Source of the DNA: Candidatus Iainarchaeum sp.
Lineage (GTDB): Archaea > Iainarchaeota > Iainarchaeia > Iainarchaeales > JAFCCW01
Assembly (NCBI GenBank): GCA_017609985.1
Contig: JAFCCW010000003.1
Coordinates: forward strand, 1-52,189
Reading direction: 5' to 3'
DNA: 52,189 nucleotides
The notes below the pieces were generated by a model that had not been told where the DNA came from, did no database searches, and saw only the letters and a list, made by a program, of their open reading frames with translations. A program made the position numbers and the translations under genes. This document shows positions 10,175-40,310 of the stretch, one piece after another (the stretch's first letter is position 1; each line of letters opens with the position of its first letter).

Positions 10175-10183
10175 CTTAAAAAC
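10175..10183 (+). promoter_or_regulatory. TATA-like box 26 nt before the heptad-repeat mini-ORF
   Basis: CTTAAAAAC is centred at 10179, 26 nt before the ATG at 10205. This matches the spacing of the other leaderless genes here, so transcription probably begins at or next to that ATG. Confidence 0.5.
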
Positions 10184-10204: not shown

Positions 10205-10336
10205 ATGACTAAAAGAAGGTGTTGGCAAATCCTGCAAAGGATGCAGTGCCAGCAGGCGCTTGAAGAGTGCCAGCAGGTGCTTGAAGAGTGCCAGCAGGTG
10301 CTTGAAGAGTGCCAGCAGGTGCAAATCCAGGCATAA
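10205..10336 (+). CDS. 43-residue heptad-repeat peptide upstream of cimA
   Basis: An ORF of 43 codons with ATG at 10205 and TAA at 10334-10336. After a basic start (MTKRRCWQILQRM) it consists of 7-residue repeats of the form CQQVLEE: one CQQALEE, two CQQVLEE and a final CQQV. Cys falls at position a and Val (Ala in the first copy) at position d of a heptad, so a short amphipathic coiled coil with a line of cysteines is predicted. A TATA-like box lies 26 nt upstream and cimA begins 42-51 nt downstream. It could be a leader ORF affecting cimA, a free-standing small protein, or a chance frame over a minisatellite. No homologue is recognised. The opposite strand is also open here but lacks a promoter. 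Confidence 0.45.
   Translation: MTKRRCWQILQRMQCQQALEECQQVLEECQQVLEECQQVQIQA
10247..10321 (+). repeat. 21-bp tandem repeat, about 3.6 copies
   Basis: Unit TGCCAGCAGGTGCTTGAAGAG (21 bp). Copies lie at 10247-10267 (one T-to-C change), 10268-10288 and 10289-10309, with a partial copy at 10310-10321. The unit is exactly seven codons, so copy-number change keeps the mini-ORF in frame. There are no spacers, so this is not a CRISPR array. Confidence 0.9.
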
Positions 10337-10376
10337 GCTGGACTTTGACAGCTTTAAGACTTTTTTAACTAATTTT

Positions 10377-10383
10377 AGGTGGT
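10377..10383 (+). promoter_or_regulatory. ribosome binding site that decides the cimA start
   Basis: AGGTGGT lies 4 nt before the TTG at 10388, like the GAGGTGGT before purC. If it is a real site, the GTG codons at 10379 and 10382, which lie inside or over it, cannot be the start. The competing reading is a leaderless GTG start driven by a TATA-like GCTTTAAGAC at 10351-10360. Confidence 0.45.
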
Positions 10384-10387
10384 GTGC

Positions 10388-11926
10388 TTGAAAAAGCAAA
10401 AAATAGAGCTTGTAGATGTTACTCTAAGGGATGGAGAGCAGACAAAAGGAGTTAGCTTTAACACAAAGGAAAAGCTAAGCATTGCAAAAACTCTGCTTTT
10501 GGAAGTCAAAGTTGACAGAATAGAGATAGCAAGCGCTCTTGTTTCAGAAAAAGAAAAAAAATCTGTTCAAAAAATAATGCAATGGGCTAAAAAGCAGGGC
10601 TTCGAAAACAAGGTAGAGGTTCTTGGATTTACTGATGGGGAAAAAAGCTCTGACTGGATTTATGAAACCGGGTGCAGAAGAATAAACCTGTTGGTAAAAG
10701 GCTCAAAAAAGCACTGCGAAAAACAGCTTGGAAAAAAACCAGAAGAGCATTTCAAGGATGCAGAAAAAACAATCAAGTATGCATTAGGCAAGAAAATGAA
10801 AGTGAATGCTTATCTGGAAGACTGGAGCAATGGAATAAAGGAAAGCAAGGATTATGTTTACAAATTTACTGAAAGACTTTTCAATGCAGGAGTAGAGCGT
10901 GTTCTGCTTCCTGATACCCTGGGATTGCTTTCACCAGAAAAAACAAAGTATTATGTAGAAGAAATTGTTTCTGCGTTTCCAGGAAAACTGTTTGAATTTC
11001 ATGCTCACAATGATTATGGCCTTGCTACTGCCAACAGCCTTGCAGCTGCTAAAGCAGGAGCAAAAGCTCTCCACGTAACAATCAACGGGCTGGGCGAGCG
11101 GGCAGGCAATGCATCTCTTGACGAAGTAGTTGCATCAATAGCTGACCACACCAGTCTTTCAACCAGAGTGAATGAGAAAATGTTGCTCAAGTCAAGCGAA
11201 CTTGTTGAAAAATTTTCCGGAAGAAGGCTGGGAGAGAACAAGCCGATTTCCGGAAGAAGCTTTTTTACCCATGCAGCAGGAATTCATGCAGACGGTTCAA
11301 AAAAAGGAATGCTTTACGAAAACAAGCTTTTGCCGGAGCGATTTGGGCAGACAAGAGAGTATGCTCTTGGCAAACTGAGCGGAAAGGCTTCGCTTGAAAT
11401 GAATCTGAAGAAGATGGATATAAGCCTTGACGCAGAACAGAAAAAAAAGGTGCTTAACAGGATTGTTGAGCTTGGAGAAAAGAAAAAAAAAGTTACTCCT
11501 GAGGACCTGCCATTTATAATTTCAGACATTCTTGAAACTCCTGAAGACAAGAAGCTGGTTATTGAAAGCTTTGACTGTGTTTCAGCAATGGAAAAAGAGC
11601 CAAGGTCAACGATTTTGGTGAGATTCAATGGAAAGAAAGCAGAGGAAAGCGAGACTGGAGACGGAGGATACGACGCATTCATGAACGCGCTAAGGAAAGC
11701 TTCCGCAAAGCTCGGATTCAAAATTCTGAAACTCTTAGACTATGAAGTGCAGATTCCCCCCGGCGGAGAAACAGATGCAATAGTTGAGACAACAATAACC
11801 TGGAAAAAGAATGGTTCACAATTCAAGACAACTGGTGTTGACTCAGACCAGCTTGTAGCAGCAATCAAGGCAACGGAAAAAATGCTTAATATTGCTAATG
11901 CAGATCTTGAAAATAAAGAAATTTGA
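10388..11926 (+). CDS. cimA: (R)-citramalate synthase, Leptospira type
   Basis: Condenses acetyl-CoA and pyruvate to citramalate, the first step of the pyruvate route to 2-oxobutyrate and isoleucine. The N-terminal barrel has TLRDGEQTKGVSF, VDRIEIASALVS, YLEDWSNGIK, the HAHNDYGLA metal-binding motif near 206, and NGLGERAGNA. The C-terminal domain has GDGGYDAFMNAL and DYEVQIPPGG, the pattern I recall from Leptospira interrogans CimA rather than from canonical LeuA. That domain carries isoleucine feedback in Leptospira. A separate canonical leuA at 38512-40047 supports the split of roles. The TTG at 10388 is preferred over GTG at 10379 because AGGTGGT precedes it. Confidence 0.85.
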   Translation: MKKQKIELVDVTLRDGEQTKGVSFNTKEKLSIAKTLLLEVKVDRIEIASALVSEKEKKSVQKIMQWAKKQGFENKVEVLGFTDGEKSSDWIYETGCRRINLLVKGSKKHCEKQLGKKPEEHFKDAEKTIKYALGKKMKVNAYLEDWSNGIKESKDYVYKFTERLFNAGVERVLLPDTLGLLSPEKTKYYVEEIVSAFPGKLFEFHAHNDYGLATANSLAAAKAGAKALHVTINGLGERAGNASLDEVVASIADHTSLSTRVNEKMLLKSSELVEKFSGRRLGENKPISGRSFFTHAAGIHADGSKKGMLYENKLLPERFGQTREYALGKLSGKASLEMNLKKMDISLDAEQKKKVLNRIVELGEKKKKVTPEDLPFIISDILETPEDKKLVIESFDCVSAMEKEPRSTILVRFNGKKAEESETGDGGYDAFMNALRKASAKLGFKILKLLDYEVQIPPGGETDAIVETTITWKKNGSQFKTTGVDSDQLVAAIKATEKMLNIANADLENKEI

Positions 11927-26476: not shown

Positions 26477-26554
26477 TTTTTTTAAAACCATAACTAAAAC
26501 CATCACGTTCCAGGCCAGCGCAATCCCAACAAGGAGATGCCTGACCATCAATAG

Positions 26555-26588
26555 AAGAAAAAGAAATTAAAAAACCAGGCAGCTGCCT
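26555..26588 (-). terminator. hairpin plus T-run upstream of tal
   Basis: The perfect palindrome AGGCAGCTGCCT at 26577-26588 is followed, on the minus strand, by GG, six T and further T-rich sequence. It sits about 92 nt after the stop of the truncated methyltransferase gene and before the tal promoter, as expected for a terminator. Confidence 0.5.
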
Positions 26589-26680
26589 CTGAGAAAAAAG
26601 AATTGAATAACTCTGTTTTAGGCAAACTGTTTGTTTTCATAAAAAAAAAACATGCTAAAATGTTTAAAAAGCTTGTTATT

Positions 26681-40047: not shown

Positions 40048-40310
40048 TTATCCACCCTGAATTTTTTAAACAATAATTTTAAACATTAAACTTCAATCAA
40101 AATAAACTTGATTAAACTACTATTAATAGTTTGTTTATGATTCAAAGCCGCTGTTCCTCTGTGCAAGGCGCGGCTATCGAAGTAGAAGCAATAGCTTTTC
40201 AAGAACAGTCTTCGGTTTAGCAAAATCTTTTGAAACAGTTTTGTATGCATATTTTGAAGACATTTATAATCACATTTATTAATGGATAATTGGGTTTAAA
40301 TAGATAGTGG

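Follow-up and report, generated by a model that had tools for sequence, protein, structure and literature searches.

A short leader reading frame conserved before cimA and tRNA-Ile genes in Diapherotrites, with a probable role in coupling isoleucine supply to cimA expression

Results

The window analysed in this study, meaning the whole stretch of 52,189 nucleotides, is contig C32 of an archaeal genome of 1.16 Mb in 37 contigs. A short open reading frame lies on its forward strand at 10205-10336 and, as the initial annotation had stated, consists of 43 codons plus TAA, with the translation MTKRRCWQILQRMQCQQALEECQQVLEECQQVLEECQQVQIQA; homologous leaders precede cimA, tRNA-Ile and ridA-thrC genes elsewhere. 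The TATA-like box that had been proposed for it was also recovered: the stretch TTAAAAA (10176-10182, forward strand) begins 29 nt ahead of the leader ATG, a spacing shared with most homologous leaders, in which TTTAAA-type boxes are matched at about -28 to -32 from the ATG. Because of this TATA-type box 28-32 nt before the ATG, the transcripts of the cimA leaders are probably leaderless, and the transcript of 10205-10336 probably has its 5' end at, or beside, the leader ATG.

Inside the frame, the conserved core AGAAGGTGTTGGCAAATCCTG (10214-10234, forward strand) encodes RRCWQIL, and differs from the family consensus AGAAGGGATNNNCRRATHCTN at the Asp codon and the codon that follows it. A Shine-Dalgarno-like stretch, AAGAAGGTGT (10213-10222, forward strand), is placed 6 nt before the first Ile codon, being part of a signal that is weak and collective. 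We observed two Ile codons that had previously been overlooked, both of them ATC on the forward strand: codon 9 (10229-10231), which is the proposed sensor codon, and codon 41 (10325-10327), which lies in QVQIQA and adjoins the stop. The frame runs through a tandem repeat to reach this second Ile codon, whereas the stops of the relatives normally fall a few codons past the Ile. Downstream of the leader, the U-rich tract TTTTTTAACTAATTTT (10361-10376, forward strand), which begins with TTTTTT at 10361, is a candidate archaeal terminator.

The cimA gene, for (R)-citramalate synthase, follows at 10379-11926 on the forward strand, with GTG 10379, GTG 10382 or TTG 10388 as its start, and these candidates lie 42-51 nt past the leader stop, in agreement with the gap given earlier. 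The cimA product scored 661 bits against the Leptospira-type CimA model and 340 against the best isopropylmalate synthase model, while the product of the bona fide leuA of the window gave the opposite result (204 and 701 bits, respectively); the assignment as cimA therefore stands, with the limit that 661 bits is below the curated cut-off of the CimA model, 950. Carbamoyl-phosphate synthase genes are found 3' of cimA. The named relatives of this cimA are Candidatus Diapherotrites MAGs, and a phylum-wide search disclosed no additional cimA outside the order. Separately, five contigs labelled as Alphaproteobacteria (L038, L039, L047, L051 and L052) carry a CimA that is 54-56% identical to the archaeal CimA, and no leader was seen before it in the two that were inspected (L038 and L039).

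With regard to the tandem repeat, Tandem Repeats Finder reported an array at 10245-10322 (forward strand) with period 21, 3.7 copies, 98% match and score 149, which is the best array of the window; as the period equals seven codons, the in-frame repeat of CQQVLEE described before is borne out, the heptads reading CQQ[AV]LEE. Each 21-bp unit carries AGCAGGTG. As RNA, a unit is able to form a hairpin of 7 bp around a GAA loop, at -9.5 kcal/mol, an energy that 4.8% of the shuffled sequences also reached, and the RNA of the whole leader is more structured than shuffles (z -2.9). The array is single copy in the genome and private to it, being absent from the cimA leaders of relatives. In the initial annotation it was suggested that the frame might encode a small functional protein, a Cys-lined mini coiled coil with a variable number of heptads, and in this one genome the translation does show a heptad periodicity, in agreement with that. 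However, the homologues, mostly of 8-17 codons, lack such heptads and the cysteine pattern in every case, nothing was obtained above the Pfam cut-offs, and the repeat unit doubles as an RNA hairpin. At the cimA loci of the order, conservation covers the short N-terminal stretch that surrounds the Ile codon, namely the first ten codons (MTKRRCWQIL), and not the repeat, a point that the earlier work had missed; we regard the coiled-coil protein as highly improbable. The repeat is instead a private in-frame expansion that separates the two Ile codons as a spacer. Lengthening by entire 21-bp units is in keeping with the family, because the leaders of three other genomes (G065, G010 and G063) also contain internal core duplications, 21, 21 and 60 nt apart and all in frame.

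Across the order, the typical leader before cimA has the pattern M-x-x-RRD-x-[RQ]-I-L, and a related leader was present 5' of cimA at 19 of the 20 loci with a readable upstream region. Examples are MTARRDGRILE, MSKRRDGRILL, MANRRDLRILPQ, MPARRDLQILP and MAERRDGQILPQRGF, each followed by a stop codon, and the cimA leaders of family f10 are shorter relatives (MSDSAIQV, MSDFAIQFYF and MKSELAIRQ, likewise ending at a stop). Most leaders possess a single Ile codon. No leader was found upstream of the cimA of G017, and in the cimA leader of G014 the canonical Ile position is occupied by Leu. Scanning 75 genomes with the motif ATGNNNNNAAGAAGGRATNNNCRRATYCT (ATG plus core, at most one mismatch) returned 18 matches against 0 in reversed-pattern controls, and all 18 lie before Ile-related genes: cimA (12), tRNA-Ile(GAU) (four), tRNA-Ile(UAU) (one) and ridA-thrC (one). 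The core without the ATG gave 18 exact matches, again all inside leaders of Ile-related genes, and this core-only scan exposed an AUA form before tRNA-Ile(UAU) genes. After surveys of the tRNA-Ile genes, the full set reached 37 leaders from 30 genomes. In the genome of the window itself, a one-mismatch match (G000:C26) showed no leader layout, and no leader was recognised upstream of the tRNA-Ile genes.

Among the surveyed tRNA-Ile genes, leaders were present at about 5 of 44 for GAU and 12 of 47 for UAU, the majority being without a recognisable leader, and several of the leader-bearing tRNA genes have, in addition, a separate TATA-like box some 45-50 nt ahead of them. Four tRNA-Ile(UAU) leaders (L291, L288, L275 and L188) have two or three Ile codons, of which the first is AUA and the last AUU or AUC; from their sequences, they apparently arose by in-frame duplication of the core unit. 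In G062 (L147:1500-2000), an Ile-type leader, MSKRRGLRILP followed by a stop, stands before a ridA-like gene and threonine synthase, and cimA was not found in that assembly.

The identity of the first Ile codon was observed to follow the gene downstream. It is ATA in all 12 tRNA-Ile(UAU) leaders (families f2, f8, f11 and f16), ATT in all five tRNA-Ile(GAU) leaders, and ATT or ATC in 19 of the 20 cimA and ridA leaders, with G014 as the exception, against a background in which ATA makes up 24% of the Ile codons in the genes of the window. The difference in codon choice gave a Fisher's exact p of 1.6e-4 for UAU against GAU leaders and of 8e-10 for UAU against all others with the one cimA exception left out, both values ignoring shared ancestry. 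The concern over phylogeny is reduced since the UAU leaders span four families and the pairs within single genomes fit: all six within-genome contrasts agree with their own downstream gene, three between GAU and UAU (G001, G030 and G044) and three between cimA and UAU (G039, G055 and G056). The anticodons were confirmed by ARAGORN for five of the five GAU genes and six of the 12 UAU genes, while for the remaining six UAU genes, five of them intron-like or uncalled and the sixth, that of G063, at a contig end, the CTTATA anticodon loop was the sole basis of assignment. This third-base rule is explained if the codon is read by a tRNA, a peptide, an operator or a hairpin offering no reason for it, and it suggests that the ribosome senses isoleucine supply at the leader Ile codon.

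Three other explanations were weighed against the same data. In the first, an Ile-responsive repressor or activator would recognise the conserved stretch as a DNA operator just 3' of the TATA box, and the frame would be incidental. Such a site would account for the constraint at the nucleotide level, where AGAAGG and GAT are nearly invariant and A is the usual third base of the variable codons 3 and 7, and for the distance to the TATA box, which is fixed in most members. However, a shared site would not switch one base depending on whether tRNA-Ile(GAU) or tRNA-Ile(UAU) is downstream. The core sits at +9 or +3 from the ATG, with additional cores 21, 21 and 60 nt beyond it, and the frame is always kept; the ATG and the frame thus persist where the spacing is 0 or 2 codons and where the core is duplicated, and the UAU leader of G001 has a Shine-Dalgarno sequence, CAGGTGAGACAATG, without a TATA box at the usual place. 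An operator is expected to be independent of gene and frame, and here the third base of the Ile codon tracks the downstream isoacceptor; we consider this explanation unlikely.

In the second, the peptide RRDxRIL would be an arrest peptide that senses free isoleucine as TnaC senses tryptophan. The conservation of R-R-D and [RQ]-I-L in most leaders, with a stop soon after, is what such a peptide would show, but the peptides are very short, and RRD is lost, with the context kept, in MQGECRILA, MYKNSQILGECRILA, MQMTKGGSRILP and MSDFAIQFYF. Moreover, AUA and AUU/AUC specify the same residue, yet the choice between them tracks the tRNA isoacceptor. Arrest peptides of the TnaC or SpeFL type conserve residues irrespective of codon, whereas in these leaders it is the Ile codon that is constrained, and we hold this possibility to be decidedly unlikely.

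The third is a small untranslated T-box-like RNA that pairs with the tRNA-Ile anticodon. A codon-anticodon match is a T-box specifier trait, and the leaders do precede tRNA and Ile genes. Nevertheless, no Rfam match was obtained in the window, the downstream fold is not conserved, and the start, stop and duplications are in frame. From the cimA leaders alone, a core hairpin of the form GGGAU-N6-AUHCU looked plausible, but covariation was not seen in GGGAU/AUHCU, and 8 of 26 sequences, chiefly the AUA leaders, cannot form the third pair. Neither a stem I specifier nor an antiterminator fold was recognised, the core having no covarying structure, and a T-box-like RNA is accordingly very unlikely.

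Concerning the sequence beyond the leaders, T amounts to 41% of the 35 nt after the leader stop, compared with 29% A in the same interval (Wilcoxon 4e-4) and with 29% T in the 35 nt beyond it (Wilcoxon 7e-5). No conserved fold was detected downstream of the leaders, the mean folding z being about 0 over the family, unlike several leuA leaders. Near the end of the window leader, ahead of the TTTTTT, there are two small hairpins with the same predicted energy, only one of which can form at a time (10326-10330/10338-10342 and 10336-10340/10349-10353, forward strand); they make up a candidate attenuator switch that is not conserved in the family. As a guess from these predicted folds, the leader may have turned into a hairpin-type attenuator in this genome, with the repeat as the spacer between the Ile codons. 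We did not class the leader as a classical hairpin attenuator because the competing hairpins of the window are missing in the relatives; mutually exclusive terminator and antiterminator hairpins are not a feature of the family.

Across the leaders, an internal Shine-Dalgarno-like AGAAGGGAU mostly lies 4-6 nt before the Ile codon. Its pairing energy averaged -6.7 kcal/mol against -5.2 kcal/mol in a synonymous-codon null (0/200), in a test that assumed the anti-Shine-Dalgarno, applied the codon usage of the window to all genomes and treated leaders that are not independent. The individual pairings are weak, and as a weak collective signal this stretch might hold the ribosome near the Ile codon as an anchor.

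At the five f10 cimA loci (L012, L013, L014, L118 and L119), CimA occupies the +1 frame relative to the leader in every case, with that frame open into the leader, and the CimA of G046 (L012) lacks any ATG, GTG or TTG over the first 20 codons of the aligned region. In f10, a +1 frameshift into CimA might be provoked by a hungry Ile codon; a non-standard start or a sequence error are possible alternatives to a programmed event.

Discussion

With reference to the evidence above, 10205-10336 is likely to be a translated leader frame that acts in cis to link cimA expression to the supply of isoleucine. From the conservation, the genomic context, the frame and the codon-anticodon match observed, we infer that the leader is translated, that the ribosome stalls on it, and that premature termination is the output. 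The original proposal of a leader frame is strongly supported by the leaders at cimA loci throughout the order and before tRNA-Ile genes with the matching codon, while its coiled-coil alternative is not supported.

In the proposed mechanism, the first ribosome would initiate at the leader ATG, at or next to the transcript start. When tRNA-Ile is charged, the ribosome would complete the short frame and depart, and RNA polymerase would terminate at the U-rich tract downstream; this termination would be of the U-tract/FttA type, perhaps assisted by a small hairpin in this genome. When Ile-tRNA is scarce, the ribosome would wait on the Ile codon behind the polymerase and fend off the termination factor or the hairpin, and transcription would proceed into cimA. 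Before tRNA-Ile genes, the same arrangement would let the cell raise the output of whichever isoacceptor runs short. Since the downstream tRNA genes are not translated, the output should be at the RNA level, which favours stalling against termination. Archaea are known to terminate at poly(U) or U-tracts and with FttA (PMC8116511, PMC8716108), steric exclusion between the ribosome and FttA has been put forward as a hypothesis (PMC11616081), and the genome studied here encodes FttA/aCPSF1, above the family cut-off.

On a wider scale, we tentatively propose, with slightly less than even confidence, an isoleucine regulon of Diapherotrites in which cimA, ridA-thrC and individual tRNA-Ile genes each lie behind a minimal, hairpin-free, isoacceptor-matched leader with U-tract/FttA-type termination, and in which f10 possibly uses a +1 frameshift. 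If this is true, a leader codon matched to an isoacceptor would be a new way to balance tRNA supply with demand, and the codon match makes the leader model directly testable by synonymous changes. It had been supposed earlier that leader-peptide control of branched-chain synthesis was undescribed in archaea, and our search agrees: in the open-access literature, subscription-only papers being outside the search, we found no report of leader-peptide attenuation in archaea or Diapherotrites, or of leader peptides governing tRNA genes, and such control is also absent from a review of transcription-translation coupling in archaea (PMC8116511).

Other leaders of a more familiar appearance occur in the same window. 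A Leu-rich leader, MSSKYAYKTVSKDFAKPKTVLEKLLLLLR (40174-40263, reverse strand), precedes leuA and is followed by a GC hairpin (z -2.4), and Leu-run leaders stand before leuA in 15 other genomes of the order, for instance MKTAGSFGTKSTNYLLSLLVLLLVLLLG, many with an inverted repeat past the stop; judged by sequence, these leuA leaders seem to represent bacterial-style leucine attenuation in archaea. Likewise, a Phe-rich leader, MKTNSLPKTELFNSFFSEAAAWFFNFFFFY (26548-26640, reverse strand), fronts an aromatic operon of talC-like aldolase, prephenate dehydratase, transketolase and DAHP synthase; a TATA-like box lies roughly 30 nt ahead of this leader, and its stop is followed by a hairpin (z -2.2). 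With the leuA and aromatic leaders of the window and the order taken together, classical-looking leader peptides seem to be common in this archaeal group.

In bacteria, the control of amino-acid synthesis by leader peptides is textbook knowledge. Control monitored by a ribosome on a leader is accordingly of a known kind, and the real finding of this study is the archaeal family, its tRNA context and the codon matching. Bacterial leader-peptide attenuators include trpL, hisL, leuL and ilv, as well as the leuA and ilvB leaders of Actinobacteria (PMC1262725, PMC10272879). The leaders reported here resemble them in having a short frame with one or more codons for the end product directly 5' of a biosynthetic gene, followed by terminator-like sequence, and the leuA and aromatic leaders of the window look just like them. 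The archaeal isoleucine leaders differ in that they mostly contain one Ile codon and not a run, mostly have a probable leaderless start, have no conserved alternative hairpins, and also front tRNA genes with an isoacceptor-matched codon.

In TnaC, the stalled ribosome blocks Rho-dependent termination. The output proposed here is similar, as a ribosome held on the leader would keep a termination factor off the nascent RNA. Stalling of the ribosome on the TnaC leader is documented (PMC8429421), but the stall proposed in Diapherotrites would be caused by a hungry Ile codon and not by a nascent peptide with a free amino acid, and the factor excluded would be FttA/aCPSF1 and not Rho. Finally, the leaders share with T-box riboswitches the match between a leader codon and the anticodon of the monitored tRNA, together with the control of amino-acid genes; they depart from them in that the leader element is an open reading frame and no T-box structure was found.
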